NCBI GenBank assembly: GCA_025463515.1
Contig: JAODAQ010000007.1
Coordinates: 1 to 41,121, forward strand
Source: Rhodoglobus sp.
Lineage (GTDB): Bacteria; Actinomycetota; Actinomycetes; Actinomycetales; Microbacteriaceae
DNA: 41,121 nucleotides
Direction: 5' to 3'
Part shown: piece by piece, positions 11,421 through 28,326 of the stretch
Layout of the letters: every line of letters starts with the position of its first letter
Numbering within the stretch: position 1 is the first letter of the stretch
Translations under genes and position numbers: made by a program
Notes under the pieces: model-generated
The model's input: the letters and a program-made list of their open reading frames with translations, nothing else
The model's database searches: none
Told to the model about the DNA's origin: nothing

Positions 11421-11427
11421 GGCGAGA

Positions 11428-11433
11428 ATCCTA
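11428..11433 (-). promoter_or_regulatory. -10 element of the HExxH gene, leaderless start
   Basis: The minus-strand hexamer TAGGAT ends 7 nt before the GTG start at 11420, so transcription is predicted to begin at the start codon. No convincing -35 is seen; read-through from the lipoprotein gene 48 bp upstream is also possible. Confidence 0.4.
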
Positions 11434-11468
11434 CCGGGGCGCTGCTGGGCGGCTCCTGCGGGCAGCGG

Positions 11469-11879
11469 TCACGGCTGCCGGACGAGGCGGCCGCAGGAGT
11501 AGACGAAATCGGTGCCGTAGCGGATGAAGCAGTAGGCGAGGGTCTTCGGATCGACGATGTGCACCTCGATCGAGGCATCCTCGCCGATCTCGGCGACGAG
11601 GTGCCCGTGCGGGGTCATCTCCGCGTGAACGTCCTCGGTGCTCTCCGCACCGTCGGCGTGGAAGGTGAGCTCGCCGTCGAAGTCGTTGCCGTCGCCCGCC
11701 GCAGCGGTGACCGTCATGTCGGTCACCCCGTCGCCGCGCTCGTCGACGGCCCCCGTCCAGTCACCGACGAGCTGCAGTTCTGCGTGGCCGACGGGCGGGG
11801 TCGCCGCGAGCGTGGGCGCGGCGGCGCATCCGGCCAGCAGTGCCGGGCAGAGCACGGCCATGACGAGCGCCGCGCGCAC
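11469..11879 (-). CDS. Small secreted lipoprotein of unknown function
   Basis: 136 residues. The N-terminus is a clear lipoprotein signal: short basic start, hydrophobic stretch, then the lipobox LLAGC with the lipidated Cys18. The mature part is a small, acidic, probably all-beta domain (LQLVGDWTGAVDERGDGVTDM, then GELTFHADG) with two further cysteines near the C-terminus (CFIRYGTDFVYSC) that could form a disulfide. The GTG start at 11879 lies 4 bp after the stop of the CMD gene, so it may ride on that operon's transcript. No function can be assigned; an envelope role is likely from the signal alone. Confidence 0.75.
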   Translation of the reverse strand: MRAALVMAVLCPALLAGCAAAPTLAATPPVGHAELQLVGDWTGAVDERGDGVTDMTVTAAAGDGNDFDGELTFHADGAESTEDVHAEMTPHGHLVAEIGEDASIEVHIVDPKTLAYCFIRYGTDFVYSCGRLVRQP

Positions 11880-11883
11880 GGCG

Positions 11884-12636
11884 TCAGCCCTCCGGCGCGA
11901 GTTCGCGCAGGATCGGCGCGCCGACGGTCACGGTGTGGATGCCGATGACGCTCGCGATCTCCATCACCTCGAGGATCTCCTGCGGCGTCGCCCCGTAGCC
12001 GAGCGCGTTCTCGATGTGCAGCTTGAGCCCGACGCGGTACAGGTGGGTCGACGAGGTGTCGAACGCGATGTAGACGAACTCCCGCAGCTTCGGGCTCAGG
12101 GTGCCGTGCAGCCAGGGGTGCGACGAGAACGCGGTGTACGCCTCGAACAGCTGCGGGGTGAGCTCGAGCATCTCGTCCCAGGTCGGGTTCCAGTAGCCGC
12201 GGTCGCGCGTGAACGCCGCCTTGATGCGCTCCTGCTCGGCGTCGAGAGGGGCGGGCGCGGTGCGCAGGCCGCGCTCGGCGAGCACCTCGACCAGGACCGG
12301 CACACCGACGTTCATGGCGTGGATGCCCAGGGTCGCCGTGCACTCGAGGACCTCCATCACCTCGCCCGTGGTGGCCCCTGCCGCAAGGGCCGCGGCAACG
12401 TGGTGACGGATGCCCGCCGCGTGCAGGTGGGTGGTCGCCGCATCCACGGCCAGGCCGACGAAGGCCCGGGTCTTGGCGTCGAGGTGCTGCTGCCGCGCCG
12501 GGACGGCCTCGAAGCCGAGGTAGGCGTGCAGGAACTCCGGGTCCAGCTCGAGGATGCTCTGCCAGCCGTCGTGCCAGCTGCCGTGCACCTCGAGGAACGC
12601 GGCCTTGATCTCCTCCTGGCGGGGCGTGAGGGTCAT
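11884..12636 (-). CDS. Two-domain carboxymuconolactone-decarboxylase-like protein
   Basis: 250 residues containing two CMD/AhpD-fold repeats (about 40-125 and 165-245). The repeats share the patterns THLHAAGIRHHVAAALAAGAT and THLYRVGLKLHIENALGYGAT, each followed by EVMEVLE/EVMEIA and a GIH helix. Neither repeat has the CxxC of AhpD peroxidases, so peroxidase activity is unlikely; the conserved His residues fit the PcaC-like branch. It lies 8 bp downstream of the MBL hydrolase and is presumably cotranscribed from the GntR-controlled promoter at about 13500. It is clearly paralogous to the protein at 23502-24266, which closes the other end of the locus. Reaction unknown. Confidence 0.88.
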   Translation of the reverse strand: MTLTPRQEEIKAAFLEVHGSWHDGWQSILELDPEFLHAYLGFEAVPARQQHLDAKTRAFVGLAVDAATTHLHAAGIRHHVAAALAAGATTGEVMEVLECTATLGIHAMNVGVPVLVEVLAERGLRTAPAPLDAEQERIKAAFTRDRGYWNPTWDEMLELTPQLFEAYTAFSSHPWLHGTLSPKLREFVYIAFDTSSTHLYRVGLKLHIENALGYGATPQEILEVMEIASVIGIHTVTVGAPILRELAPEG

Positions 12637-12644
12637 CGTCGCGC

Positions 12645-13439
12645 CTAGGCGAGGACGGTGGCGATCTCACCGGCGGCGCCGGGAGCCGCGGGGAAGCGGT
12701 CGCGGGTGCGCCCGTCGTGGCCGGGCACGACTGTCGCGCCGGTCTCCTTAGCGAGCTTCGTGATGAACGCGAGGCCCGCCTTCATCTCGTCGAGGTCCGT
12801 GTAGGCGAAGAACGGCCACTCGTGCTCGACCTGCTCGTAGAAGTGGGCGGCGTCGACGCTCAGGATGAGGCCGCCCGACGCGGTCTCGACCCGGGTGAGC
12901 AGCTCGCCCGGGCAGTGCCCGCCGATGGGATAGACGTGTATCCCGGGGTAGACCTCGGTCTCCGTGTCGATGAGCACGAGCCGTCCCTCGTCCTCGGCGC
13001 GGTGCACGGGGGCGAGGTCGTCGACCGTCGAGAACTCGCCGTCCAACTGGCCGGCGGCCTCCTTGCCGAACCAGTAGTCGCGCTCGGCGCGGCCGGAGAC
13101 GACCTTCGCGTTCGTGAACAGTCCGAGGAAGCCGATGTGGTCGTAGTGGTAGTGGCTCGTGATGACCATGCTGACGTCGGCGGGGTCGATCCCCAGGATC
13201 TCGAGGCCGCGCGGAGTGGGGGTGACACTGATCTCGCCGAGCCAGTCGAACTTGGGGATGTCGTAGCCGGTGTCGACGAGGATGATCGTCCCGCCGTCGC
13301 GGACCACCCAGAAGTTGTAGTCCATGTCGAGGTCGCCGTCCGGGAGGCCGTACTGGGCGTACTCGTGGAACACGTCGCTCTTGCGCACTACGCGCTCGCC
13401 GTACTTCACAGACCAGACCGAGAGTGCACCGTCGGACAT
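12645..13439 (-). CDS. MBL-fold metallo-hydrolase, AHL-lactonase-like
   Basis: 264-residue metallo-beta-lactamase-fold enzyme with the dinuclear zinc motif HYHYDH (His96-x-His98-x-Asp100-His101), a third His in PIGGHCPGE, the bridging Asp in LSVDAAH and a late His in VVPGHD. Its N-terminal region (NFWVVRDGGTIILVDTGYD) and size resemble N-acyl-homoserine lactonases, so it may open a lactone or hydrolyse an ester or thioester. The start is ATG 13439, preceded on the minus strand by GGAG, with the frame otherwise open far upstream. It is driven leftward from the divergent GntR-box promoter. A related enzyme lies at 18429-19256. No cysteine-type or glyoxalase II signature was noted. Confidence 0.88.
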   Translation of the reverse strand: MSDGALSVWSVKYGERVVRKSDVFHEYAQYGLPDGDLDMDYNFWVVRDGGTIILVDTGYDIPKFDWLGEISVTPTPRGLEILGIDPADVSMVITSHYHYDHIGFLGLFTNAKVVSGRAERDYWFGKEAAGQLDGEFSTVDDLAPVHRAEDEGRLVLIDTETEVYPGIHVYPIGGHCPGELLTRVETASGGLILSVDAAHFYEQVEHEWPFFAYTDLDEMKAGLAFITKLAKETGATVVPGHDGRTRDRFPAAPGAAGEIATVLA

Positions 13440-13499
13440 AGAAACTCCTTTGTTGTCTACTGGACCGTCGCCGACCTCTCGATCGCTTCGGTTGGCACG

Positions 13500-13529
13500 A
13501 CTATATGATTGTCGGACAATGTGCGTCAA
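13500..13529 (-). promoter_or_regulatory. Leftward promoter of MBL-CMD operon with GntR-type operator
   Basis: On the minus strand TTGACG (13529-13524) and TATAGT (13505-13500) are separated by 18 bp, a near-consensus promoter. The spacer contains the 13-bp palindrome ATTGTCGGACAAT at 13508-13520 (plus-strand reading). This ATTGTC-N-GACAAT form is typical of FCD-subfamily GntR operators, and its position predicts repression when bound. The leader to the ATG at 13439 is about 55 nt and has a GGAG ribosome-binding site. Confidence 0.85.
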
Positions 13530-13581
13530 GTCCGTGCCGCGCTGAGATTCGAGTGATTTCGCCCCAGTTCTGGCGCGGCGG

Positions 13582-13613
13582 TTGACACGGCGAGGCTCTC
13601 CGTGCACTCTTAT
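13582..13613 (+). promoter_or_regulatory. Rightward promoter of the import/catabolic operon
   Basis: A perfect -35 TTGACA lies at 13582-13587. The -10 is less clear: CACTCT (13605-13610, 17-bp spacer) or TCTTAT (13608-13613, 20-bp spacer). The second operator copy follows immediately at 13618-13632, over the expected transcription start, which predicts repression. Confidence 0.65.
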
Positions 13614-13617
13614 CCCA

Positions 13618-13632
13618 GATTGTCCGACAATC
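13618..13632. promoter_or_regulatory. Second GntR-type operator
   Basis: The 15-bp palindrome GATTGTCCGACAATC has the same ATTGTC-N-GACAAT core as the copy at 13508-13520, with the centre base complemented. It sits just downstream of the rightward promoter. The likely ligand is the FCD-GntR protein encoded at 22745-23446 in the same locus. I found no third full copy in the window. Confidence 0.85.
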
Positions 13633-13703
13633 AGACAGTAACTTCGAATGGCAATGCGGGACGGCAACGATGTCGCTCCGACAACAACAGCAAGGGGTTT
13701 GCA

Positions 13704-14891
13704 ATGAAGCGAATCATCCCAGTCGTCACCGCGATCGCTGCGGTCACGGCTCTCGCGCTCGCCGGATGCACCGGCGGAGGCGGCGGCGGCACGACTGACG
13801 ACACCATCGTCATCGGCGGTATCGCCGGCACGACCGGTGCGTACGGCGCGGTCGGCATCGCGGTCATCAACGGCAGCCAGATGGCCGTCGACGAGATCAA
13901 CGAGGCCGGCGGCATCGACGGCCGCCAGATCGAGTTCACGTGGGACGACGACGCGGCCGACGCGACGAAGTCCTCGCAGCTCTTCCAGCAGTTCGTGAGC
14001 GACGGCGCGGTGGCCATCCTCGGCTCGCCCGACACCGGCCCCACGACGGCCGCCCTCGGCGACCAGATGCAGATCCCCGTGCTCGGCGCCGTCGACGACG
14101 GCGGCCTCACGGTCTACCCGAACGGCCCGGACGAGGACCCCTTCGCCTGGACGTTCAGCACCTCGCTCAACACCTTCGCCTGGGGCGGCAAGCTCGCCGA
14201 GTGGTCGATCGACAACTGCCCGAACGGCCTGGCCATGCTCCACGACCCGACCACCTACGGACTCGGCGGCCTCGCCGGCTTCGAGCAGGTGTTCAAGGAG
14301 ACCGGCCACGACTTCGTCTACGTCGAGTCGATCACCGAGAACTGGGGAAGCGGCGCGACGGTCAACCTCGACGCCGAGATCCAGAAGATCGTCGACTCCG
14401 GCGCGAGCTGTGTCGACGTCTGGCTGACCCCCGGTGACGAGGCGACCTTCGTCCAGGAGATCGCGTCGCTCGGCATCACCGACCTCAAGGTGCTCGGCAA
14501 CGACGTCACCAACGCCGACGCGACGTTCACCGACCTCGCCGGCCCGGAGGGCGACGGAGTCATCTCCGCGCTGCTCACCTCCGACGTGCACCCGAACGAC
14601 CGCCTGCTCGAGTGGCAGGGCCAGTACCGCGACAAGTTCGACGGCCTCGAGCCGGGCCCGTTCGCGGAGCTCAGCTACGACGCGGTGTACATCCTCAAGC
14701 AGGTCATCGAGGATGCCGACGGCGCCACCGACCCGGAGTCGATCCGTGCGGGCCTCAACAAGCTGACCGACTTCGAGGGCCTCACCGGCAGCCTGTCGTT
14801 CACCGAGCAGGTGCACACGACCATCAACAAGGAGCAGCTCACGATGGTCGCGTGGAACCTCGCGAACAAGAAGTGGGAACCGATCGAGTAG
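13704..14891 (+). CDS. ABC transporter substrate-binding lipoprotein, Liv/amide type
   Basis: 395-residue extracytoplasmic solute receptor of the branched-chain-amino-acid family (periplasmic-binding fold type I). The lipobox is LALAGC with Cys22, followed by a Gly-rich linker. The mature protein begins IVIGGIAGTTGAYGAVGIAVINGSQMAVDEINEAGGIDG, the family hallmark. It is the first gene of the rightward operon and precedes the two permease genes. This family binds amino acids but also aromatic acids, amides and other organic acids, so the fold does not reveal the ligand. The ATG at 13704 follows AAGGGG. Confidence 0.93.
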   Translation: MKRIIPVVTAIAAVTALALAGCTGGGGGGTTDDTIVIGGIAGTTGAYGAVGIAVINGSQMAVDEINEAGGIDGRQIEFTWDDDAADATKSSQLFQQFVSDGAVAILGSPDTGPTTAALGDQMQIPVLGAVDDGGLTVYPNGPDEDPFAWTFSTSLNTFAWGGKLAEWSIDNCPNGLAMLHDPTTYGLGGLAGFEQVFKETGHDFVYVESITENWGSGATVNLDAEIQKIVDSGASCVDVWLTPGDEATFVQEIASLGITDLKVLGNDVTNADATFTDLAGPEGDGVISALLTSDVHPNDRLLEWQGQYRDKFDGLEPGPFAELSYDAVYILKQVIEDADGATDPESIRAGLNKLTDFEGLTGSLSFTEQVHTTINKEQLTMVAWNLANKKWEPIE

Positions 14892-14908
14892 CACGCACGT
14901 CCTCGCAG

Positions 14909-14939
14909 TCCCCGGCAGGCGGATCCGTCCTGCCGGGGG
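14909..14939 (+). other. Intercistronic hairpin between receptor and permease genes
   Basis: A perfect 10-bp stem, CCCCGGCAGG (14910-14919) with CCTGCCGGGG (14929-14938), encloses a 9-nt loop whose core CGGATCCG is itself palindromic. No T-tract follows. Its place between the receptor gene and the permease genes suggests an RNA-stabilising or partial-termination element that keeps receptor levels above permease levels, as known for other ABC importer operons. Confidence 0.7.
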
Positions 14940-14981
14940 CTGCCGCCCCACCACCCTCCAGAAACATCCGAAGAGGATCTG

Positions 14982-15893
14982 ATGCTCCAAGTGCTGCTCT
15001 CCGGCCTCACGGTCGGGACCATCTACGGCCTCGTCGCCATGGCGTTCGCCGTGGTGTTCTACGTGACCAAGGTCGTCAACTTCGCCACCGGCCAACTGCT
15101 GATGGTGTCCATCCTGCTTACCGCGGGCCTGGTCAGGCTCGGCCTGCCCGACTGGCTCGGCGTGGGCATCGCGCTCATCGCCTCGACGGTGCTCGGCGTC
15201 ATCATCTACTTCGTGGCCGTGCGCCCCGTGCTGAAGTTCGACAGGTTCAGCTTCGCCTGGCTCGTCAGCACCCTCGGCATCGCCATCGTCATCCAGGCCA
15301 CCTTCGCCATCATCTTCGGCCCGGCCTCGCAGCCCTTCCCGCGCGGCCTGCACCAGATCCCCGTGCACCTGCCCGGCGCGACCCTCACCGTGCAGGAGAT
15401 CCTGACCCTCGTGGTCGGCGCGCTCGCCGTGCTCGGCTGGGAGCTCGTGCGGCGCAAGACCCTCGTCGGCAAGCTCGGCATGGCCATCTCCACCGATCCG
15501 GAGATCGCCTCGACCTTCGGCGCCAACGTGACCGCGTACGCGGTCGGCGCCTTCGCGATCGGCGGGTTCCTCGCGGGCCTCGCCGGCATCCTCGTCGGCC
15601 CGATCACGTACGGCAACCCGTACCTCGGCGACACCTACGGCATCTCCGGATTCATCGCGCTCATGATCGGCGGGATCCAGCGCCCGGCCGCGGCCATGGG
15701 CGGCGGGCTGATCCTCGGCGTGCTCTCGATCGCCGCGAACTCCTACATCGGCGCGCAGGCCTCGGACTGGTTCCCGTTCGTCCTCGTGCTGCTCGTGCTG
15801 CTGCTCGCCCCGAACGGCGTGTTCGCCTCGGGCGACTCGCTGCGGAAGCTGTTCCGCCGCCGGAGCTCCCTCACGGTCGGAGGCCGGGCATGA
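14982..15893 (+). CDS. ABC importer permease, LivH type
   Basis: 303-residue integral membrane permease of the branched-chain-amino-acid importer family. It starts MLQVLLSGLTVGTIYGLVAMAFAVVFYVTKVVNFATG, the LivH N-terminal signature, and has several further hydrophobic segments. The GGFLAGLAGILVG motif near residue 205 lies in the loop region that contacts the ATPases. The start is ATG 14982 with GAAGAGGATCTG upstream. The stop overlaps the next gene (ATGA), so the permeases are coupled. Substrate unknown, set by the receptor. Confidence 0.93.
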   Translation: MLQVLLSGLTVGTIYGLVAMAFAVVFYVTKVVNFATGQLLMVSILLTAGLVRLGLPDWLGVGIALIASTVLGVIIYFVAVRPVLKFDRFSFAWLVSTLGIAIVIQATFAIIFGPASQPFPRGLHQIPVHLPGATLTVQEILTLVVGALAVLGWELVRRKTLVGKLGMAISTDPEIASTFGANVTAYAVGAFAIGGFLAGLAGILVGPITYGNPYLGDTYGISGFIALMIGGIQRPAAAMGGGLILGVLSIAANSYIGAQASDWFPFVLVLLVLLLAPNGVFASGDSLRKLFRRRSSLTVGGRA

Positions 15894-17695
15894 TCGCCGC
15901 ACTGCGCAAGCGGAGCTGGATCACCACGGTCATCCTGCTCGTGGCGTTCGCCGCCGCCACCCTGTTCGCCGCCAAGGCGAACTTCGGCCTGCAGAGCGTC
16001 ATCACGGTCACCGCGATCTTCGTTGTGCTCGCCCTGAGCCTCGACCTCGTCGCCGGGGTCGTGGGGCTCTACTCGCTCGGCCACGCCGGCCTCTTCGCGA
16101 TCGGCGCCTACGGCACGACGCTGCTGGCGCGCGACCTGCACCTGAACGTGTTCCTGCTGCTGCCGATCGTGATCATCGCGGCGGCGCTCGTGGGTGCGCT
16201 GCTGGGCGCGCTGTCCTTGCGCGTGAGCGGCCTCTACTTCGCGATGACGACGTTCATCTTCACGATCATCGTCTACGTCACGCTGAGCAACTCGGCCTGG
16301 ACGATGGGCCTGCAGGGGCTGCCCGGTCCGCTGTTCCCGAACTTCCCGCGGGATGTCCAGGACATCTTTGGGCGCTCGGTGATCTGGGCAGTCGCCGCGG
16401 TGGTGCTCATCACGATCGTCATCGTGTGGAGCATCCGTCGCTCGGCGTTCTACCCCGTGCTGCTCGCGGTGCGCGACGCGGAGCCGTACGCCAGGGCGAA
16501 CGGCGTGCGCACCTCGCTCGTGAAGGTGGGCATCTTCGCACTCTCCGCCGGGCTCGCGGGCATGGCCGGCTGGGCGTTCTCGTTCCTCGTGTACCAGTCC
16601 CCGGGCCAGTTCGGCTGGGTGCAGTCGGTGAACCTGCTCGTCATGGTGATCATCGGCGGCATGAACACCCGCCTCGGCCCGATCCTCGGCGCCGTGCTCG
16701 TCGGCATCTTCCCGTTCGTCGTGAAGATCGACCCGTTCCTGCAGGAGGTGGTCTTCGGCGCGGTGTTCGTCATCGTCGTGGTCTTCTTCCCGCGCGGGAT
16801 CATCGGCCTGGTCGACCTCGTGGTCCGCAAGATCCGGTCGGCGATGGGCCGCGGCACGACTGCGGTTCCGACCGTCGAGCCCGTAGCGGTCGCGCCCGCA
16901 GCTTCGGCGGCGACGACCCGCGGCGGAGACATCGCGCTCTCGGCGAAGGGCATCGGCTTCAGCTACGTGCCCGGTGTGCCGGTGCTGCGCGACATCGACA
17001 TGGTCGTGCGCCGCGGCACCATCCACGGGCTGATCGGCCCGAACGGCTCTGGCAAGTCGACGCTCGTCAACCTCATCTCCGGCGAGCTGCGGCCCGTCCA
17101 GGGCGAGATCGAGCTCAACGGCGACCGGGTCGAGCAGCTGTCCGCGCCGTCCCGCCCCGCCCACGGCCTCATGCGCACCTTCCAGAGCGCGGTGCTCGTG
17201 CGCGAGCTGTCGATCCTCGAGAACACGACAGTCGGGCTCTACAGCACGGTCAAGCGCATCGCCGCCCGCTCCGTGATCTGGCCGCTGCTGCCGAGCGCGC
17301 GCCGCGACTCCCGGATGCTCCGCGAGAAGGCCGGAGCGGCGCTGGAGTCGGTCGGGCTGCAGAAGAGCTGGCACGGCACGCAGCTGCGAGACGTGCCGCA
17401 CGGCGTCGAGCAGCTCACGCAGCTCGCGTCGTCGATCGTGTCCGACCCCTCGGTGCTCGTGCTCGACGAGCCGCTCGCGGGGCTGTCGGGGGCCGAGGTG
17501 ACGCACGTCGCGGAGATCCTGCACAGGCTGCGGGAGCGCGGGGTCACGGTGATCGTCATCGAGCACCAGACCCGCTTCATCTTCGACAACTGCGACGACG
17601 TCACGGTACTGGCCGCCGGGGAGCTCGTCACGAGCGGTCCCGCCGCCGAGGTCAGAGCCAACGCTCGCGTACGAGAGGTCTACCTGGGGCAATGA
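15890..17695 (+). CDS. Fused ABC importer permease-ATPase (LivM-LivG)
   Basis: 601-residue fusion. Residues 1-317 are a LivM-type permease (SLDLVAGVVGLYSLGHAGLFAIGAYG is the family signature). An Ala/Pro/Thr-rich linker spans about 318-345. Residues 346-601 are a LivG-type ATPase with Walker A GPNGSGKST, Walker B VLVLDEP, and the H-loop IVIEHQ. The ABC signature is unusual: where LivG proteins have a Y-G-Q-Q-R-type segment, this reads VPHGVEQLTQLASS, lacking the usual Gln/Arg. Permease-ATPase fusions of this family occur elsewhere. Start ATG 15890 overlaps the LivH-type stop; the stop overlaps the next ATPase. Confidence 0.92.
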   Translation: MIAALRKRSWITTVILLVAFAAATLFAAKANFGLQSVITVTAIFVVLALSLDLVAGVVGLYSLGHAGLFAIGAYGTTLLARDLHLNVFLLLPIVIIAAALVGALLGALSLRVSGLYFAMTTFIFTIIVYVTLSNSAWTMGLQGLPGPLFPNFPRDVQDIFGRSVIWAVAAVVLITIVIVWSIRRSAFYPVLLAVRDAEPYARANGVRTSLVKVGIFALSAGLAGMAGWAFSFLVYQSPGQFGWVQSVNLLVMVIIGGMNTRLGPILGAVLVGIFPFVVKIDPFLQEVVFGAVFVIVVVFFPRGIIGLVDLVVRKIRSAMGRGTTAVPTVEPVAVAPAASAATTRGGDIALSAKGIGFSYVPGVPVLRDIDMVVRRGTIHGLIGPNGSGKSTLVNLISGELRPVQGEIELNGDRVEQLSAPSRPAHGLMRTFQSAVLVRELSILENTTVGLYSTVKRIAARSVIWPLLPSARRDSRMLREKAGAALESVGLQKSWHGTQLRDVPHGVEQLTQLASSIVSDPSVLVLDEPLAGLSGAEVTHVAEILHRLRERGVTVIVIEHQTRFIFDNCDDVTVLAAGELVTSGPAAEVRANARVREVYLGQ

Positions 17696-18420
17696 GCAAC
17701 ACCATCGACAACACCCTCGTCGTCGAGGGGCTGAGCGGCGGCTACGACCGCTTCGACGTCATCCACGACATCGCGTTCCGGGTCGGCCGGGGCGAGGCCG
17801 TGGCGCTGCTCGGGCCGAACGGCGCGGGCAAGTCCACGGTGCTGCGCGCCATCACGGGGCTGCTGAAGCACCGCCGCGGCACCGTGACGATCGACGGCAC
17901 CAACGTCGTGGGGATGGGCCCTCACCAGATCTCGCGCGGGCTCGCCGCGATGGTCCCCGAGGGGCGCCGGCTGTTCGTCGGCCAGTCCGTCGAGGACAAC
18001 CTGCGGCTCGGCGGCATGCGCCTGCGCAAGGACCGTGCCCGCACCGACCAGCTCCTCCAGAGCGTGTACGACCTGTTCCCCGTCGTCGAGCGGTACAAGG
18101 CGCGCGAGGCGACGGCGCTGAGCGGCGGCGAGCAGCAGATGGTGGCCATCGGCCGGATGATGATGAGCGACCCGTCGCTCATGCTCCTCGACGAGCCGTC
18201 CCTCGGCCTTGCGCCCCTGGCCATCGCCGACCTCATCACGGCGCTGCAGCAGCTGAGGGAGCGCAAGAGCTCGATCCTGCTCGTCGAGCAGCGCGTGGAC
18301 ATCGCGCTCGAGGTCTGCGATCGCATCTACGTGCTCAGTGAGGGCAGGATCGTCGATGAGGGTCGCGCGTCGGACATCGGTACCGAGGGACGGGCACTCA
18401 TCGATGCCTACCTGGGATGA
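17692..18420 (+). CDS. ABC importer ATPase, LivF type
   Basis: 242-residue second ATPase of the importer. Motifs are complete: Walker A GPNGAGKST, signature ALSGGEQQMVAIGRMMM, Walker B LMLLDEPSLGLAP and the H-loop LLVEQ. VPEGRRLFVGQSVEDNL is the LivF-specific Q-loop region. With the LivG half of the fusion it should form a heterodimeric motor in which this subunit supplies the canonical signature. The ATG at 17692 overlaps the preceding stop, and the stop overlaps a possible upstream start of the next gene. Confidence 0.94.
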   Translation: MSNTIDNTLVVEGLSGGYDRFDVIHDIAFRVGRGEAVALLGPNGAGKSTVLRAITGLLKHRRGTVTIDGTNVVGMGPHQISRGLAAMVPEGRRLFVGQSVEDNLRLGGMRLRKDRARTDQLLQSVYDLFPVVERYKAREATALSGGEQQMVAIGRMMMSDPSLMLLDEPSLGLAPLAIADLITALQQLRERKSSILLVEQRVDIALEVCDRIYVLSEGRIVDEGRASDIGTEGRALIDAYLG

Positions 18421-18428
18421 GGACTGAC

Positions 18429-19256
18429 ATGACCGGCTCAGCAGACGACACCTACGAGATCGTGATCGTGAAGTTCGGCACGCGCCAGACCGTGCGCAGC
18501 GAGGTGTACCTCAACTACCAGCTCTACCACGAGGACGACGGGCCGATCGGCATGGACTACTTCATGTGGATCATCCGTAACGAATCGCGGACCATCCTCG
18601 TCGACACCGGCTTCTCGGCGGCCGGCGGTGATGCGCGCAAGCGCACGACGCTCGTCCCGCCGATGGAGGCGTACGCGGCCCTCGGCATCCTCCCGGAGTC
18701 GGCCCCGCCCATCGTGATCACCCACGCGCACTACGACCACACCGGCCACCTGTCGCAGTTCCCGGCGTCCGAGATCGTGATCGCCCGCGCAGAGCTCGAC
18801 TTCTGGTCGGGCCCGCAAGCGCACCAGAAGCAGTTCCACCACTCGGTCGAGGACGACGACCTCGCCGTGCTCTGGGCGGCCGAGACCGCGGGCCGGGTCA
18901 CCTCCTTCACCGGCAGCCACAGGCTCGCGCCCGGCGTCGAGGTGATCCAGGTCGGCGGCCACACGCCGGGCCAGAGCATCGTCCGCGTCCAGACCCGCGC
19001 GGGCTCCGTGCTCCTGGCCTCGGACGCCGTGCACTACTACGAGGAGCTCGAGCGGGAGATGCCGTTCATGTCGGTTGCCGACCTCGTGGCGATGTACGAC
19101 AGCTTCGACACGATCCAGGGGATGCTCGCCGACGGCACCGTGACCACGGTCGTCTCTGGTCACGACCCGGACACGCTGCGCCGCTTCACCCCGCTCGACG
19201 GGCCGCTCGACGGACCTCTCGCGGGTCTCGCCGCCGTGGTCGGGGGTGCGTCGTGA
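18429..19256 (+). CDS. Second MBL-fold metallo-hydrolase
   Basis: 275-residue MBL-fold hydrolase with the zinc motif HAHYDH (His99, His101, Asp103, His104), a further His in GGHTPGQ, Asp in LASDAVHYYEE and His in VSGHD. It resembles the enzyme at 12645-13439 along its length (VKFG at the start, then MDYxxWIIRNE and ILVDTGF) but is clearly diverged. I prefer the ATG at 18429 because GAGGA lies 5 nt upstream; an ATG at 18417 overlapping the livF-type stop would add four residues without a good ribosome-binding site. Lactone or ester hydrolysis is plausible. Its stop overlaps the SDR start (GTGA). Confidence 0.88.
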   Translation: MTGSADDTYEIVIVKFGTRQTVRSEVYLNYQLYHEDDGPIGMDYFMWIIRNESRTILVDTGFSAAGGDARKRTTLVPPMEAYAALGILPESAPPIVITHAHYDHTGHLSQFPASEIVIARAELDFWSGPQAHQKQFHHSVEDDDLAVLWAAETAGRVTSFTGSHRLAPGVEVIQVGGHTPGQSIVRVQTRAGSVLLASDAVHYYEELEREMPFMSVADLVAMYDSFDTIQGMLADGTVTTVVSGHDPDTLRRFTPLDGPLDGPLAGLAAVVGGAS

Positions 19257-20110
19257 GGGGCCGCTTCGAGGGCAGGGTCGCACTCGTCACGGGCGCTGCG
19301 GGCGGCCTCGGCCGCGCCTCGGCCGAGCGGCTCTCCGCCGAGGGCGCATCCGTCGTGCTCGTCGACCTCGATGTCGCGAAGGCGGAGGCGGTGGCCGCGG
19401 GCCTGGCGGGGGAGAGCCTCGTCATCGGGGCGGACATCTCGGACGAGGCATCCGTCGCCGCCGTCATCGAGGGCGCCGTGGCACGCTTCGGCCGCATCGA
19501 CCACCACCACCTCAACGCCGGGATCTTCGGCAGCTTCGTGGCCCTGCCCGACCTTGGCGTGGACGAGTTCGAGCGGGTGATGGCGGTCAACGTGCGCGGG
19601 ACGTTCCTCGGGGTGCGCGCCGCGTTCCGCCAGTTCAGCGCGCAGGGCACGGCCGGCTCGATAGTCGTCACGGCGTCGATCGCGAGCCTCACCGGCGCGG
19701 CCGACCTGCTGCCGTACCACACGTCCAAGCACGCGGTGGTGGGGCTCGTGCACGGAGCCGCGGTATACGGCGGGCCGCTCGGCATCCGGGTGAACGGCGT
19801 CGCGCCGGGCATCGTGCCGACCGACCTGTTCGCCGCAGCCGCGACGACCGCGGGCGGCAAGAACGACATGGAGCAGCGCGCGTCGACCACGCCGCTGCGC
19901 CGCGCGGGCTCGCCCGCCGAGATCGCGGGGGTGTCGGCGTTCCTCCTGAGCGACGACGCCTCCTACGTCACGGGCCAGATCGTGAGCGCCGACGGCGGCG
20001 CCACCATCGTCAACACGGTCCGCCCCTCCGGCGGAGCGGGAGCCTGGGACACGCGGGTCGTCGACGACCCGATGTACAGCACTAGCGGGAACTGGAGCAC
20101 TGGACAATGA
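19253..20110 (+). CDS. Short-chain dehydrogenase/reductase
   Basis: 285-residue SDR using NAD(P)(H) to interconvert an alcohol and a carbonyl. Motifs are the nucleotide-binding TGAAGGLG, the LNAGI variant of NNAG, the catalytic Ser in TASIAS, and the active-site YHTSK (Tyr-x3-Lys). Asp in VDLDV at the end of beta-2 favours NAD over NADP. The C-terminal tail after GGATIVNTV is about 25 residues longer than usual. GTG start at 19253 overlaps the previous stop; the stop overlaps the next gene (ATGA). Probably acts on the imported compound or its hydrolysis product. Confidence 0.92.
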   Translation: MRGRFEGRVALVTGAAGGLGRASAERLSAEGASVVLVDLDVAKAEAVAAGLAGESLVIGADISDEASVAAVIEGAVARFGRIDHHHLNAGIFGSFVALPDLGVDEFERVMAVNVRGTFLGVRAAFRQFSAQGTAGSIVVTASIASLTGAADLLPYHTSKHAVVGLVHGAAVYGGPLGIRVNGVAPGIVPTDLFAAAATTAGGKNDMEQRASTTPLRRAGSPAEIAGVSAFLLSDDASYVTGQIVSADGGATIVNTVRPSGGAGAWDTRVVDDPMYSTSGNWSTGQ

Positions 20111-21009
20111 CCACGACCATCGGGTTCATCGGACTCGGCAATATGGGCGGCCGGATGACCCGCCGCCTCGTCGACTCGGGGCTGGAGGTTCTGGGCTTCG
20201 ACGCGAAGAGCGAGAACATCGGCGCCGCGGGTGCCTCGCCCGCCGCCTCGGCGGCGGAGCTCGCGGCGACGAGCGACATCGTGTTCCTCTCGCTGCCCGA
20301 CAGCCGCGTCGTGGAGGCGGTAGTGCTGGGCGACGACGGCATCGCCGCGCACGTGCGGCCGGGCACCATCGTCGTAGACCTCAGCACCTCCGCCCCGGCC
20401 TCGACCCGGGCCATCCACGGCGTGCTCAGCGCGAAGGGCGCCGCGTACCTCGACGCGGGCATCTCCGGAGGAGCCGCCGCGGCCGAGGCGGGAACGCTCA
20501 CGCTCATGGTCGGCGGCGAGGCCGAGGCGCTCGCGACAGTGCAGCCCTTCCTCGCGCCCTTCGCGACCAACGTCTTCCACGTCGGGTCCTCCGGCGCGGG
20601 CCACGTCACGAAGCTGCTCAACAACTTCCTGAACGCCGTCGCACTGTCGGCCACCGCCGAGGTCATGGTCGCGGGGAAGAAGGCCGGCCTCGACCTGGCG
20701 GTGCTCCTCGACGTGTTCAACAAGAGCTCGGGCGTGAACTTCGCGACCCTCAACCGCTTCCCGAAGATCATCACGGGCGACTACCTCAAGGGCGGCCTCA
20801 CCAACACGCTCATGCTCAAGGACGTCGTGCTCTACACCGAGCTGCTCGCCGAGCTCGGCGTCGCGGGGCTCAACGCCCCCGGCCCCCTCGCGGCCTTCGG
20901 CCTGGCGCGCCAGCTCGGCTACGCCGACGAGATCAGCAACACCGTGGTCGACGCCATCGGAGACATCTCCGGCGGCGTGCGGCTGCACGACGCAGGAGGC
21001 ACGGAATGA
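20107..21009 (+). CDS. NAD-binding beta-hydroxyacid dehydrogenase (HIBADH family), copy 1
   Basis: 300-residue member of the 3-hydroxyisobutyrate / tartronate-semialdehyde reductase family. The N-terminal Rossmann motif is GFIGLGNMGGRM, the substrate-binding segment is DAGISGGAAAAEAGTLTLMVGG, and the catalytic Lys lies in GHVTKLLNNFLN. Members oxidise or reduce beta-hydroxyacids. It is a paralogue of the protein at 21804-22694. ATG 20107 overlaps the SDR stop, and the stop overlaps the cupin start. Exact substrate not readable. Confidence 0.9.
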   Translation: MTTTIGFIGLGNMGGRMTRRLVDSGLEVLGFDAKSENIGAAGASPAASAAELAATSDIVFLSLPDSRVVEAVVLGDDGIAAHVRPGTIVVDLSTSAPASTRAIHGVLSAKGAAYLDAGISGGAAAAEAGTLTLMVGGEAEALATVQPFLAPFATNVFHVGSSGAGHVTKLLNNFLNAVALSATAEVMVAGKKAGLDLAVLLDVFNKSSGVNFATLNRFPKIITGDYLKGGLTNTLMLKDVVLYTELLAELGVAGLNAPGPLAAFGLARQLGYADEISNTVVDAIGDISGGVRLHDAGGTE

Positions 21010-21413
21010 TCATCCGCCACGCGAACACCGAGCACGCGGCCCCGGCCAAGCCCTCGCAGTTCACCGGCCGCGCCGTCGGCGACTCGATCCTGCCCGCGAC
21101 CGACGGGGTCATCATCAACACGATGACGTTCGAGCCGGGCGCGCGCACCCACTGGCACACCCACGAGCACGGCCAGATCCTCTCCGTGGTCACCGGGTAC
21201 GGGCTCATCTGCACCGCGGGGGAGGCGCCAGAGGCGCTGCGGCCCGGTGACTGGGTCTGGATCCCGCCGGGCGAGCGCCACTGGCACGGGGCCGGCCCCG
21301 ACACCTTCCTCACCCACACCGCAATCTCCCTCGGCGCCACGCAGTGGTCGGACGAGGTCAGTGCAGAGGAATACGCCTCAGCACCCCACACAGTTGAAGG
21401 GGAATCCGAATGA
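21006..21413 (+). CDS. Cupin domain protein
   Basis: 135-residue single-domain cupin. The metal-binding motifs are HWHTHEHGQ in the first cupin motif and ERHWHG in the second, with WIPPG between, so a metal site (Fe, Mn or Zn) is likely. Cupins next to or fused with CMD domains are a known combination, and here the next overlapping gene is a CMD, which supports a joint function. It could be an isomerase, a dioxygenase-like enzyme or a small-molecule sensor; the sequence does not decide. ATG 21006 and the stop both form four-base overlaps with neighbours. Confidence 0.88.
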   Translation: MIIRHANTEHAAPAKPSQFTGRAVGDSILPATDGVIINTMTFEPGARTHWHTHEHGQILSVVTGYGLICTAGEAPEALRPGDWVWIPPGERHWHGAGPDTFLTHTAISLGATQWSDEVSAEEYASAPHTVEGESE

Positions 21414-21817
21414 CCAGCGACGGCACCCACCGTGACAGCTTCGACACCGGGATGAAGGTGCGCCGCGAAGTGCTCGGCGATGCGCACGTCGACCGGTCGC
21501 TCGCCCAGGTGAGCGACTTCGCCCGGCCGATCCAGGAGCTCGTGACCGAGTACTGCTGGGGCGAGGTGTGGTCGCGCGACGGACTGCCGCGCGCCACCCG
21601 CAGCCTCATCAACATCGCCATGCTCACCGCGCTCAACCGCGGCCACGAGCTCGGCGTGCACGTGCGCGGAGCGATCAACAACGGGGTGACCGAGACCGAG
21701 ATCCAGGAGGTGCTCCTGCAGACTGCGATCTACGTCGGGGTTCCCGCATCGCTCGAGTCGTTCCGCATCGCGGAGAAGGTGCTCACCGAGATGAAGGCAG
21801 CCAATGCCGCAGAATGA
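21410..21817 (+). CDS. Gamma-carboxymuconolactone-decarboxylase-like (PcaC-type) protein
   Basis: 135-residue single CMD domain, the size of PcaC, which decarboxylates 4-carboxymuconolactone. It contains the PcaC-style segments TRSLINIAMLTALNR, GHELGVHVRGAINNGVTETEIQEVLLQTAIYVGVP and the final SFRIAEKVL. It lacks a CxxC motif, so it is not an AhpD peroxidase. The ATG at 21410 overlaps the cupin stop; its 3' end overlaps the next gene by 14 bp. No ring-cleavage dioxygenase or PcaB is nearby, so true protocatechuate degradation is not supported and the substrate is probably different. Confidence 0.9.
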   Translation: MTSDGTHRDSFDTGMKVRREVLGDAHVDRSLAQVSDFARPIQELVTEYCWGEVWSRDGLPRATRSLINIAMLTALNRGHELGVHVRGAINNGVTETEIQEVLLQTAIYVGVPASLESFRIAEKVLTEMKAANAAE

Positions 21818-22694
21818 CCTCCCCGTGATCGGCTTCGTCGGCCTCGGGAACATGGGGATGCCCATGGCGACGCGTCTCGTCGGGGCCGGCTACGCCGTGC
21901 TCGGGTTCGACGTCGCCGAGCCCGTGCGCGCGGCGTTCGCCTCCGCAGGCGGCTCCTCGGTGGACACGCTCGGCGCTGTCGTCGCGGGCGTCGACGTGCT
22001 CATCCTCATGCTGCCCGACTCGAAGGTCGTCAACGCCGTGCTCGGCGACGCCGGCCTGCAGGAGGGCCTGCGCGCCGGCACGATCGTCATCGACATGTCG
22101 TCGTCGGAGCCGATCAAGACGCGCGCGCTGGCCGCCGACCTCGACGGCCGCGGCATCGTGCTGATCGACGCCCCGGTCTCGGGCGGCGTGAAGGGCGCGG
22201 TCAACGGCGCGCTGACGATCATGGTCGGCGGGCCGGCTGCGACGGTCGCCGAGGCGATCCCCGTGTTGGAGCAGCTCGGCAGGCCGGTCCATGCCGGCCC
22301 GGTCGGCTCCGGCCACGCGATCAAGGCGCTCAACAACCTGCTCTCGGCAACACACCTGCTCGCGACATCCGAGGCGATGCTCGCCGGCAAGCGCTTCGGG
22401 CTCGACCCCGAGGTCATGCTGTCGATCTTCAACAGCTCGAGCGGCAAGAGCGGCTCGACGGAGAACAAGTGGCCGAACTTCATCCTGCCGGGCGGCTACA
22501 ACTCGGGCTTCGGGCTGCGGCTCATGCTCAAGGACATGCGCACCGCGACCGATCTCGCCGAGCAGCTCGACGTGCCCGACGAGCTCGGCAGGGCCGCCGT
22601 CGACCTGTGGGCGCGCGCCGCCGCCGACTTGGAGCCGACCGCCGACCACACCGAGATCGCCAAATGGCTCGCGCAGCGAGAGGTGGGCCTATGA
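21804..22694 (+). CDS. NAD-binding beta-hydroxyacid dehydrogenase (HIBADH family), copy 2
   Basis: 296-residue paralogue of the dehydrogenase at 20107-21009. It has the Rossmann motif GFVGLGNMGMPMATRL, the DAPVSGGVKGAVNGALTIMVGG substrate segment (closer to the family consensus than copy 1) and the catalytic Lys in GHAIKALNNLL. The ATG at 21804 lies 14 bp inside the preceding CMD gene. Having two diverged copies in one operon suggests two separate redox steps or two stereoisomers. The regulator gene begins 50 bp downstream. Confidence 0.92.
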   Translation: MPQNDLPVIGFVGLGNMGMPMATRLVGAGYAVLGFDVAEPVRAAFASAGGSSVDTLGAVVAGVDVLILMLPDSKVVNAVLGDAGLQEGLRAGTIVIDMSSSEPIKTRALAADLDGRGIVLIDAPVSGGVKGAVNGALTIMVGGPAATVAEAIPVLEQLGRPVHAGPVGSGHAIKALNNLLSATHLLATSEAMLAGKRFGLDPEVMLSIFNSSSGKSGSTENKWPNFILPGGYNSGFGLRLMLKDMRTATDLAEQLDVPDELGRAAVDLWARAAADLEPTADHTEIAKWLAQREVGL

Positions 22695-22744
22695 TGACGA
22701 CGTAAGCCCACATCGTATGACGAACGTACTAAAAGAGCGAAGGC

Positions 22745-23446
22745 ATGGCACGCGCAAACTCTCTCGCGGAATCCTGGAACGCAGAACCCATGGGCCGGAT
22801 TGCCGCGCCCCTGAGGGAGCAGGTCATCGCGGCCCTCCGCCAGGCCATCCTCGACTTCCACCTCAAGCCCGGCCAGCGGCTCGTCGAGCGTGAGCTCATC
22901 GAGCAGCTCGGCGTCTCCCGCACCACCGTGCGCGAGGCGCTGCGCGAGCTGACCTCCGAGGGCCTCGTGACCGTCGTCCCGCAGAAGGGCGCGGTGGTCG
23001 CGACACCGACCCTCGAGGACGCCATCGACCTGTACGAGGTGCGCGGCGCGCTCGAGTCCCTCGTCGTGCAGCGCTTCGTCGAACGGGCCTCAGACTCCCA
23101 GGTCGAGCGACTCGAAGCGGCCGTGGAGCGGTTCCACGACGCGACGATCCGCACGGCCGACATCCGCCAGATCCTCGCGGCCAAGAACCTGTTCTACGTG
23201 GTGCTCATCGAGGGTGCCGCAAGCAGTGCACTGCAGCAGCTCCTGGAGGGCATCCAGGCCCGCGTGCAGGTGCTGCGGGCGACCTCGCTCTCCGAGGAGG
23301 GCAGGACCTTCGCCGCCGTCCGCGAGCTCAGGGCCGTCGTCGCGGCCGTTCGCGCGCGGGACTCCGCGCTCGCCGCGCGGCTGACCGCCGAGCACATCCG
23401 GGCAGCCTCGGAGACCGCGCTCCTCCACATGCGCTCGGGCGACTGA
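22745..23446 (+). CDS. GntR family regulator, FCD subfamily
   Basis: 233-residue regulator. The winged helix-turn-helix is LVERELIEQLGVSRTTVREALRELTSEGLVTVVPQKGAVV (about residues 44-83). The rest is an all-helical FCD effector domain. The His residues that bind metal in many FCD domains look partly replaced (KNLFYVVL and VRELRAVV where FH and EH are usual; AEHI is kept), so effector binding may be metal-independent. It probably binds the ATTGTC-N-GACAAT boxes at 13508 and 13618. The 50-bp upstream gap has no such box, so autoregulation is not evident. Start ATG 22745; a later ATG (MGRIAAP) is possible. Confidence 0.92.
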   Translation: MARANSLAESWNAEPMGRIAAPLREQVIAALRQAILDFHLKPGQRLVERELIEQLGVSRTTVREALRELTSEGLVTVVPQKGAVVATPTLEDAIDLYEVRGALESLVVQRFVERASDSQVERLEAAVERFHDATIRTADIRQILAAKNLFYVVLIEGAASSALQQLLEGIQARVQVLRATSLSEEGRTFAAVRELRAVVAAVRARDSALAARLTAEHIRAASETALLHMRSGD

Positions 23447-23468
23447 GCCGCTACCGCTACTCCCGCTA

Positions 23469-23483
23469 CGCCGAGCTTCGGCG
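23469..23483 (+). other. Small hairpin after the GntR gene
   Basis: A 6-bp stem CGCCGA/TCGGCG with a 3-nt loop lies in the 55-bp gap before the last gene of the locus, just after three copies of CCGCTAC (23448-23469). No T-tract follows. It could weaken read-through or protect RNA ends. Confidence 0.35.
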
Positions 23484-23501
23484 ACCCACAAAGGACCGAC
23501 A

Positions 23502-24266
23502 ATGCAGTTGACCGCACGCCAGCAGGAGATCAAAGACTCGTACATCGCCGCACGCGGCGGCTGGGGCGAGCCGTGGGAGACGGTCCTCGCCGTCGACCCC
23601 GAGTTCGTCGCCGCCTACCTCGGGCTGTACCAGGTGCCCTGGGAGAAGAACGAGCTGAGCGACAAGTTCAAGGAGCTCTGCTACATCTCGATCAACGCCG
23701 CAGCGACGCACCTGCATGTGCCGGGCATCCGGCCGCACATCAAGCGGGCCCTCGAGTTCGGGGCGACCGCCCACGAGATCATCGAGGTGCTCGAGCTCGC
23801 GTCGACGCTCGGCATCCACACCATGAACATCGGCGTGCCGCTGCTGGTCGAGGTGCTCGAGGAGCGCGGACGCACCGAGGCTGCTCCGTTGAACGAGTAC
23901 CAGGAGCGGCTGAAGGCGCAGTTCACCGAGACGCGCGGCTACTGGCACGACTTCTGGAACGAGATGCTCGAGCTCGACCCCGAGATGTTCGCCGCGTACA
24001 CCGAGTTCTCCTCGGTGCCCTGGCGCACCGGCACGCTCACTCCGGCCGAGAAGGAGCTGATCTACATCTCCTACGACATCGCGGCGACGCACCTCTACGT
24101 GCCCGGCACCAAGCTCCACATCCGCAACGCGCTGAACCACGGTGCGACGGTCGGGCAGATCCTCGAGGTCATGGAGATCTCGAGTGTGATCGGCATCCAC
24201 GCGGTGACGACGGCGGTGCCGATCCTCGTCGAGGAGCTCGCCGCGGCGGGCAAGCCCCTCGACTGA
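23502..24266 (+). CDS. Two-domain CMD-like protein, right-end paralogue
   Basis: 254 residues with two CMD/AhpD-fold repeats, closely related to the protein at 11884-12636 (both share, for example, EVLE-x-A/T-TLGIH-x-MN-x-GVP-x-LVEVL-x-ERG). The conserved pattern THLHVPGIRPHIKRALEFGAT lacks catalytic cysteines. The ATG at 23502 has AAAGGA upstream. It is the last gene of the rightward operon, while its paralogue is in the leftward operon, so the regulon has one two-domain CMD in each arm. Function unknown; decarboxylation, isomerisation or a structural role are all possible. Confidence 0.88.
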   Translation: MQLTARQQEIKDSYIAARGGWGEPWETVLAVDPEFVAAYLGLYQVPWEKNELSDKFKELCYISINAAATHLHVPGIRPHIKRALEFGATAHEIIEVLELASTLGIHTMNIGVPLLVEVLEERGRTEAAPLNEYQERLKAQFTETRGYWHDFWNEMLELDPEMFAAYTEFSSVPWRTGTLTPAEKELIYISYDIAATHLYVPGTKLHIRNALNHGATVGQILEVMEISSVIGIHAVTTAVPILVEELAAAGKPLD

Positions 24267-24276
24267 GGGCGGGCTA

Positions 24277-24840
24277 CTACTTCTGGAGGATGACCTCGAG
24301 GTCGATGGAGATCGTGACCTCGTCGCCGAGGGTCACGCCGCCGGCCTCGAGGGCCGAGTTCCAGTTGACGCCGAAGTCGAGGCGGTTGATCTTCGTGGTC
24401 GCCGTCGCGCCCGCGCGGGTGTTGCCGTAGGAGTCGGTGATGATGCCGCCGAACTCGCCCTTGAGGGTCACGGGCTGGGTGACGCCGCGCAGGGTCAGGT
24501 CGCCGGAGAGGGTGAAGTCGCCGGAGGCGATGTCGCCGCCGAAGCCGGTCGACGTGAAGGTCATGGTGGGGTGCTGCTCGACGAGGAAGAAGTCGCTCGA
24601 GCGCAGGTGGTTGTCGCGCGCCTCGACCTTGGTGTTGACGGAGGCGACGTCGATGGTCGCGGTGACCGTCGAGTCCTTCGGGTCCTCAGCGGTGACGATC
24701 GTGACGTCGAACGTCTCGAACGTGCCGCGCACCTTCGTGATCATGAGGTGCTTGACCGAGAACGCGATCTCGGAATGGGTGGGGTCGAGGGTCCAGGTGC
24801 CGACGAGGTAGTCGGGGTGGATGTCTGTTGCATTGGTCAT
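24277..24840 (-). CDS. YceI family lipocalin-like protein
   Basis: 187-residue YceI-domain protein; the family binds amphiphiles or isoprenoids in a lipocalin-like barrel. It begins WTLDPTHSEIAFSVKHLMITKVRGTFETFD, the family hallmark, and ends with the typical RLDFGVNWNSALEAGGVTLGDEVTISIDLE. No signal peptide is present, so it is probably cytoplasmic. I chose ATG 24840; ATG 24849 and GTG 24861 are in frame, but a TAGTAT element ends 7 nt before 24840, suggesting a leaderless start there, and GTG 24861 would lie inside an operator-like repeat. Convergent with the preceding CMD gene with only 10 bp between. Confidence 0.9.
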   Translation of the reverse strand: MTNATDIHPDYLVGTWTLDPTHSEIAFSVKHLMITKVRGTFETFDVTIVTAEDPKDSTVTATIDVASVNTKVEARDNHLRSSDFFLVEQHPTMTFTSTGFGGDIASGDFTLSGDLTLRGVTQPVTLKGEFGGIITDSYGNTRAGATATTKINRLDFGVNWNSALEAGGVTLGDEVTISIDLEVILQK

Positions 24841-24855
24841 GCGGCCCATACTAGT

Positions 24856-27781: not shown

Positions 27782-27784
27782 TTC

Positions 27785-28267: not shown

Positions 28268-28273
28268 GGGTCG

Positions 28274-28302: not shown

Positions 28303-28326
28303 GCGAATCCGTACCGTGGCGGCACC

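Follow-up and report, generated by a model that had tools for sequence, protein, structure and literature searches.

The window analysed here is the whole of a 41,121-nt stretch of contig JAODAQ010000007.1 from Rhodoglobus sp., and all positions are given in window coordinates. Its segment 11884-24266 holds 14 reading frames, each open and complete, which encode metallo-beta-lactamase-fold (MBL) hydrolases, dehydrogenases of the SDR and 3-hydroxyisobutyrate dehydrogenase (HIBADH) families, carboxymuconolactone-decarboxylase-fold (CMD) proteins, a cupin, a Liv-type importer and an FCD-GntR regulator (Table 1). An earlier note made from the sequence alone had described 14 genes of these families in two divergent operons, and both the reading frames and Pfam bear it out. 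The locus is best regarded as one instance of a catabolic cassette that is widespread and as yet uncharacterised, and which here is divergently arranged, carries a Liv importer and has been inserted within the lineage.

Table 1. Features of the cassette and its island (AHL, N-acyl-homoserine lactone; GtHNL, Granulicella tundricola hydroxynitrile lyase)
Feature	Position	Strand	Basis or remark
Accessory island, 12.85 kb, inserted	11422..24275		Empty sites in congeners
CMDa, two-domain CMD-fold protein	11884..12636	-	Pfam CMD x2
MBL1, AHL-lactonase-like MBL-fold hydrolase, HxHxDH motif intact	12645..13439	-	Lactamase_B
Operator 1, ATTGTCGGACAAT	13508..13520		Between -35- and -10-like boxes of minus strand
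Operator 2, ATTGTCCGACAAT	13619..13631		Upstream of plus arm
Liv-type (HAAT) substrate-binding lipoprotein	13704..14891	+	Peripla_BP_6
Intercistronic hairpin, binding-protein gene/permease gene	14892..14981	+	Folding of 14889-14985
LivH-type permease	14982..15893	+	BPD_transp_2
LivM-LivG fusion (LivMG), permease and ATPase	15890..17695	+	BPD_transp_2 + ABC_tran, one frame
LivF-type ATPase	17692..18420	+	ABC_tran
MBL2, AHL-lactonase-like hydrolase, the cassette's more constant MBL	18417..19256	+	Lactamase_B
SDR oxidoreductase, GTG start	19253..20110	+	adh_short_C2
HIB1, beta-hydroxyacid dehydrogenase	20107..21009	+	NAD_binding_2 + NAD_binding_11; best PDB 3obb
Small cupin, GtHNL type	21006..21413	+	Cupin_2; best PDB 4bif at 1.6e-24
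CMDs, single-domain CMD	21410..21817	+	Pfam CMD; TIGR02425 over cut-off
HIB2, beta-hydroxyacid dehydrogenase	21804..22694	+	NAD_binding_2 + NAD_binding_11; best PDB 3cky
FCD-GntR regulator of cassette	22745..23446	+	Pfam GntR + FCD (FCD over cut-off)
CMDb, two-domain CMD, paralogue of CMDa	23502..24266	+	Pfam CMD x2; best PDB 2q0t at 4e-82

The genes are tightly packed. The four-base overlaps mentioned in the earlier note number seven, all in the plus arm (LivH/LivMG, LivMG/LivF, LivF/MBL2, MBL2/SDR, SDR/HIB1, HIB1/cupin and cupin/CMDs); CMDs and HIB2 overlap by 14 bases, and a gap of 8 bases separates MBL1 from CMDa. The importer that the note had named is present, with Peripla_BP_6, permease and ATPase domains at 13704-18420, except that LivM and LivG are not two genes: permease and ATPase are fused in a single 601-aa frame. 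The hairpin behind the binding-protein gene is strong (-44.5 kcal/mol, z -3.6) and of the kind expected where a binding protein is expressed unevenly. In agreement with the note, the 30 window proteins that were run against Pfam, a subset of the reading frames, included no ring-cleavage dioxygenase, no PcaB and no CoA ligase.

The earlier note had proposed looking for the co-occurring gene set in other genomes, and the set recurs. A profile of the two-domain CMD (CMD2) was run on a collection of 84,980 species genomes, giving 253 pattern matches of which 153 were confirmed, and the best 80 of these 153 were taken with up to 20 kb of their surroundings. Shadow frames in the high-GC DNA made a clustering of the neighborhoods on all reading frames >95 aa unreliable; a codon model, which miscalled the Liv genes of the window, and then tblastn were used. 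Counts below refer to these 80 loci, several of them on contigs cut short, and, unless stated otherwise, to tblastn with fixed score limits. Eight cassette families were followed: the AHL-lactonase-like MBL, SDR, HIB1, GtHNL-like cupin, small CMD, HIB2, FCD-GntR and CMD2. All eight were held by 37 loci, seven by 21, six by 11, five by two, three by six and two by three, so that at least six of the eight occur in 69/80. By individual protein, MBL2 and HIB1 were each detected in 73 loci, HIB2 and the cupin in 71, the SDR in 63, the small CMD in 58, GntR in 51 and MBL1 in 22. An Actinomycetota label is attached to 79 of the loci; the remaining one (L041, titled Rhodococcus) is labelled otherwise, probably wrongly.

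Gene order is conserved together with gene content. The cupin lies directly downstream of HIB1, on the same strand and within 400 bases, in all 71 of its detected copies, as against 7.0 expected under shuffled order, and the corresponding adjacencies are 51 against 5.4 for CMDs-HIB2, 47 against 7.2 for HIB2-CMD2 and 45 against 5.8 for MBL2-SDR. The small CMD adjoins HIB2 or the cupin in 51/58 loci. Outside the collection, plasmid records of Acidiphilium cryptum, Sodalis praecaptivus and Paraburkholderia carry the cassette, with NIPSNAP in all three, an aldehyde dehydrogenase (ALDH) in the latter two and MmgE/PrpD in Paraburkholderia. When HIB1 served as a second anchor (E<=1e-70), it matched ten plasmid records, eight of them from Paraburkholderia, and these ten are also the top-ranking records for CMD2. 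A Marinobacter plasmid has a short form comprising ALDH, HIBADH, CMD, cupin, TRAP importer and GntR; the Sodalis cassette was unmatched in E. coli genomes. The two-domain CMD itself was found in 14/199 genomes of a family-level sample and in at least 2/396 of a phylum sample, the latter a lower bound with at most six candidates scored per genome; both figures include the genome of the window.

Some loci contain further genes. In 10/80 (L023, L024, L025, L029, L034, L050, L060, L062, L069 and L070) the cassette has a gene nearby that, by its sequence, resembles one for a thiamin-diphosphate-dependent enzyme, and a type II dehydroquinase-like gene stands within the cassette of Glaciibacter superstes (L044, 12732-13259). 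The earlier note would have to give way to an already characterised homologous cluster with a known substrate; a literature search found none, and no paper on the gene set. The CMD gene beside monoamine oxidase genes in Cronobacter, as presented in an excerpt of PMC3680222, was judged unrelated.

A shared operator accompanies the genes. Two sites in the divergent promoter are perfectly palindromic: ATTGTCGGACAAT starts at 13508 and ATTGTCCGACAAT at 13619. The FadR-type palindrome ATTGTCSGACAAT has two copies in the genome, both inside this promoter, and likewise TTGTCNGACAA is found twice in the 3.32-Mb assembly, both times in 13509-13630 and nowhere else. The palindrome fits the FadR-subfamily consensus TNGTNNNACNA as it is given in an excerpt of PMC9145765. 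With an FCD domain and, in its own cluster's promoter, a TNGTNNNACNA-type site, the regulator would fall among FadR/FCD-type GntR proteins with a local regulon. Across the 80 loci, 15 exact ATTGTCNGACAAT sites occur in 12 loci, compared with 0 in three Markov runs; allowing up to one mismatch gives 44 sites in 34 loci, the 29 with one mismatch comparing with 1.0 in the Markov runs. Copies of the site lie ahead of cassette genes in Acidiphilium and in two Paraburkholderia as well. It is thus likely, with good support, that both arms respond to the GntR at 22745, and the placing of operator 1 between two promoter boxes would suit repression. The twin operator also suggests that the single import-plus-catabolism unit envisaged in the earlier note is probably co-regulated.

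The cassette occupies an accessory island. It is flanked by 10359-11420 and by a YceI gene at 24277-24861, and the matches to these flanks lie 21, 34 and 53 bases apart in the congeners G601, G606 and G603, respectively; in G601 the match to window position 11421 is followed 13 bases on by the match to 24276. The empty site is thus seen as adjacent flanks in G601 and G606 and by gene positions in G603. Because the flanks adjoin in congeners without the cassette, the segment 11422-24275 is an insertion, located about 9 kb from the atp genes. Salinibacterium metalliresistens (G591, the genome of locus L010) carries the island at this very site, and the two copies are collinear over 12.8 kb with 80.4% identity. 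In the other congeners examined the flanking genes are apart, lie on different contigs, or are unmatched on one or both sides, and the two-domain CMD is held by 2/27 genomes of the genus, the present one included. A small gene inside the island at 11469-11879, with no Pfam match and a lipoprotein-like start, is missing from the empty sites and collinear in G591. Of at least 60 repeat families the 20 largest include no direct repeats at the island ends, so that we claim no mechanism of insertion. A Pfam scan showed no integrase-like gene in the island, and the base composition of the island (0.692) is that of its flanks (0.682 and 0.699). The cassette is an accessory island that has probably spread horizontally, and we hold its recurrence, its common operator and its island status with high confidence.

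The importer, which the earlier note had counted as part of the set, is not a constant component. Under strict score limits just 5/80 loci had LivH; Rbs-type and PotD-type binding proteins were detected in 5 and 14, respectively, and an MHS symporter in 18 (31 for MHS importers by looser clustering), while 38/80 had none of the four. Since the importer varies among MHS, PotD-, Rbs- and Liv-like types, Liv does not define the cassette; the importer is exchangeable, and the window carries one of several alternatives. In G041, a genome of the same family with a Liv-type cassette, an Rbs-type importer and an SDR lie between the two arms. The best solved relatives of the binding protein are amino-acid-type binders (best E 1e-19), and the four alignments with such binders leave its ligand unfixed.

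The two-armed layout is similarly particular: G041 and G591 share it, but it is not general. Agreia (L014; L116 is apparently the same contig) and some other relatives have a tandem of MBL1 and MBL2 within a single operon, and the two are adjacent nine times in the 80 loci. MBL1 with a two-domain CMD and without the rest, an arrangement resembling the minus arm of the window, occurs in L026, L028 and L029, of which L026 and L029 are short contigs; as MBL1-CMD2 adjacency overall amounts to 4 against 2.9 expected, this pairing is only a hint.

The earlier note had raised two stereoisomers or two successive cycles as a possible reason for the duplicated enzymes, an idea that found no support. Over their aligned parts CMDa and CMDb are 55% identical, HIB1 and HIB2 46%, and MBL1 and MBL2 36%. 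HIB1 and HIB2 occur together in 71/80 loci; both MBLs occur in 19, MBL2 alone in 54 and MBL1 alone in 3. Because each member of the MBL and HIB pairs has its own counterparts in other loci, MBL1 and MBL2, and likewise HIB1 and HIB2, form separate orthologous groups and appear to be distinct enzymes of a single route rather than recent copies. In a quick tree with long branches, CMDa forms a clade with four other Microbacteriaceae loci (SH-aLRT 99, on a long end branch), CMDb falls in a clade of six Microbacteriaceae rows (SH-aLRT 100, long branches flagged), and the two clades are not nearest kin of each other. The two-domain CMDs may thus stem from an old duplication or from a second acquisition.

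The cassette was compared with several known systems. CMDs exceeds the cut-off of the PcaC model TIGR02425 (169.2 against 155.7 bits), as would be expected if the locus were a fragment of the protocatechuate branch of the beta-ketoadipate pathway, which also has a lactone intermediate, with the CMD proteins acting as PcaC. We consider this very improbable. CMDa and CMDb score 33 and 31 bits, far below the cut-off, and the small CMD keeps company with HIB2 or the cupin as described above. Unlike the protocatechuate branch, the cassette has HIBADHs, an SDR, a cupin and MBLs, while a Pfam scan found in it neither pcaB nor pcaD nor linkage to pcaHG or another dioxygenase. The same genome carries a separate pcaHGBDC set in a row on contig C12, where PcaH, PcaG and PcaC score over their cut-offs and PcaB and PcaD under theirs, PcaB as the best match and PcaD among the best two. 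The protocatechuate pathway was therefore rejected, and the earlier statement that the locus matches neither this pathway nor any other that could be named stands. Behind the pca set, at 7885-13454 of C12 (L115), lie genes that resemble the homoprotocatechuate (hpa) pathway.

For both MBLs the best NCBIfam matches are AHL-lactonase models (AiiA/AttM/AidB). They share with these lactonases and with 4-pyridoxolactonase the MBL fold with HxHxDH, and differ from them in their catabolic setting and in scores far below the curated cut-offs. The H, H, D and H of the motif are conserved in both MBLs, with at least 95% of sequences retaining them in sets of 75 for MBL2 and 23 for MBL1. A quorum-quenching locus that opens and consumes AHLs would account for the model matches, and yet appears quite unlikely: the scores are 52-71 bits (at most 60.9 for MBL1 and 71.1 for MBL2) against cut-offs of 360-390, a Pfam scan found no acylase or amidase among the cassette proteins, and two HIBADHs, three CMDs and a cupin would have no evident role. 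AHL consumption was rejected on the profile scores. Vitamin B6 degradation was likewise rejected, as 4-pyridoxolactonase gives 51.2 bits with MBL1 and 32.2 with MBL2 (cut-off 325) and pyridoxal 4-dehydrogenase gives 167.9 with the SDR (cut-off 325).

Both HIB proteins combine NAD_binding_2 and NAD_binding_11 and so belong to the beta-hydroxyacid dehydrogenase superfamily. They share these domains with the 3-hydroxyisobutyrate, tartronate-semialdehyde and 2-hydroxymethylglutarate dehydrogenases (3obb, 3cky), the last of these being 3cky, the best match of HIB2. They differ from that family in scoring under the listed equivalog cut-offs (192.2 and 200.9 against 291.6 bits for TIGR01692, 3-hydroxyisobutyrate dehydrogenase) and in context, mostly with a cupin after HIB1 and the small CMD before HIB2. 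We take their best solved relatives to act on a hydroxyl group beta to a carboxylate; the lysine of the GxGxxxK motif can be read in both sequences. An ALDH is clustered with the cassette in 8/80 loci (9/80 by looser clustering). Three ALDHs of relatives (L086, L003 and L002) match betaine-aldehyde, HpaE and similar models best, under all cut-offs, and score lower still against the CoA-acylating MMSDH. The valine/3-hydroxyisobutyrate pathway was rejected, the HIBADH cut-off being missed and the ALDHs favoring other models.

The constancy of HIB1 and HIB2, which is that of MBL2 (73, 71 and 73 of 80), is also what would be seen if the cassette degraded a beta-hydroxyacid or branched hydroxymethyl acid with MBLs that are thioesterases, esterases or glyoxalase-like enzymes and not lactonases. 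In the same direction, the best solved relative of MBL2 (8x78) bears no more specific annotation than glyoxylase/beta-lactamase superfamily II protein. Lactonases come first in the NCBIfam matches of both MBLs, however, and a Pfam scan found in the cassette no CoA ligase or CoA transferase that would form a thioester; this alternative has perhaps one chance in five or slightly more.

The cupin matches the Granulicella tundricola cupin hydroxynitrile lyase (4bif) at 1.6e-24 and, unlike it, lies in a catabolic operon behind HIB1 and scores below the hydroxynitrile lyase cut-off (120.5 against 140 bits for NF049940). At least 95% of 76 aligned cupins retain HxHxxxQ and a downstream His, which we take to be metal ligands. 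CMDb matches the two-domain CMD 2q0t over nearly its full length, and as that entry is named a "putative" gamma-carboxymuconolactone decarboxylase subunit it gives CMDb no mechanism. A literature search found no pathway role for GtHNL-type cupins or two-domain CMDs. Tropate-type chemistry, in which a HIBADH, decarboxylation of a formyl acid and an ALDH follow one another, fits on paper; the literature search found nothing on it, and it is not claimed.

Taking these comparisons together with the genomic context, we propose that the locus serves the catabolism of a small lactone or hydroxycarboxylate, as a cassette that is induced by its substrate and has spread horizontally, with a probability of roughly 0.55. 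The import-to-intermediate pathway for a lactone or hydroxyacid proposed in the earlier note thus survives in its enzyme types and in the co-regulated unit of import and catabolism, while its substrate remains an inference, a lactone or beta-hydroxyacid being plausible. In the proposed route the FCD-GntR regulator would sit at the twin ATTGTCSGACAAT sites and repress both arms, and a ligand from the pathway would release it; the Liv importer would bring in the acid or lactone. MBL1 and MBL2 would then open the lactone, or hydrolyse an ester, to a hydroxyacid; we lean slightly towards lactone opening. The SDR, HIB1 and HIB2 would oxidise hydroxyl groups, the HIBADHs at the carbon beta to the carboxylate, and the resulting beta-oxo or formyl acids would be decarboxylated or isomerised by the CMD proteins, CMDs being paired with HIB2 and the share of CMDa and CMDb being less clear. 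The metal cupin may be a C-C lyase or isomerase that takes the HIB1 product as its substrate, and an ALDH, clustered in some relatives, would end the route. This exact division of labor between the CMDs and the cupin is tentative. The order of import, ring opening, oxidation and decarboxylation or C-C cleavage is based on the lactonase matches of the MBLs, the adjoining monooxygenase and the solved relatives of the HIBADHs.

That flavin monooxygenase, FMO-like by Pfam in one case, lies by the cassette in five loci: it adjoins MBL2 in L021 and is near the cassette in L052, L060, L069 and L072. Baeyer-Villiger monooxygenases make lactones from ketones, and we read the enzymes near the cassettes as probably of this type. 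An HpaI-type aldolase lies by the cassette in 7/80 loci, and in L021 a single run reads DUF6282-HpaI-monooxygenase-MBL2-SDR-HIB1-cupin-CMDs-HIB2-GntR-CMD2. The cassette might then serve the later steps in the breakdown of a cyclic ketone or terpenoid, with the lactone supplied by a Baeyer-Villiger monooxygenase encoded elsewhere, to which the extra SDR beside Rbs-type importers in G041 and Agreia would also be suited. With a monooxygenase in five loci only, and none in the cassette of the window, we regard this as improbable; a search of the window's genome with the L052 monooxygenase as single query, and with no positive control, gave no match at 1e-10.

Several observations weigh against a lactone cassette under one regulator, among them this missing monooxygenase match and the small number of loci with a monooxygenase or aldolase (5 and 7 of 80). 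Neither MBL comes near an equivalog cut-off (at best 71.1 of 375 bits), 8x78 carries only a superfamily name, and the MBL fold includes esterases, thioesterases and glyoxalases as well. GntR was detected in no more than 51/80 loci, the examined stretch of 46/80 contains no operator with up to one mismatch, and none was found before the Sodalis cassette. The locus set is biased to close relatives, the profile having been built from cassette members, and CMD2 alone is no marker of the cassette because 9/80 loci hold just two or three of the eight families. The cupin family is broader than the cassette, with matches in 379 plasmid records: in Marinobacter the cupin comes after the CMD and not after HIB1, and in Tateyamaria it has neither neighbor.

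Two further gene groups of the window lie outside the island. At 24894-29794 are genes for an FAD oxidoreductase (DAO), a class-III aminotransferase, an Lrp/AsnC regulator and an ALDH, a set that looks like amine/GABA catabolism. The region 30396-41079 contains a frame of 1964 codons (32800-38694) beside genes for a PP2C phosphatase, a protein kinase, an AAA_3 ATPase and a DUF58 protein.

Since CMDs scores over the PcaC cut-off, automatic annotation may name it 4-carboxymuconolactone decarboxylase and so lead to false pathway calls, the pca set being elsewhere in the genome. The twin operator offers a direct handle for finding the inducer. More speculatively, the cassette may represent a still unnamed pathway of Actinomycetota and Proteobacteria with its own conserved operator, interchangeable importers and two dedicated pairs, in which HIB1 would work with a GtHNL-type cupin as C-C lyase and HIB2 with a PcaC-like CMD as beta-oxo acid decarboxylase. 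If true, this would give GtHNL-type cupins and two-domain CMDs a natural role, and the HIB1-cupin and CMDs-HIB2 pairs provide a testable route to the natural function of both families.

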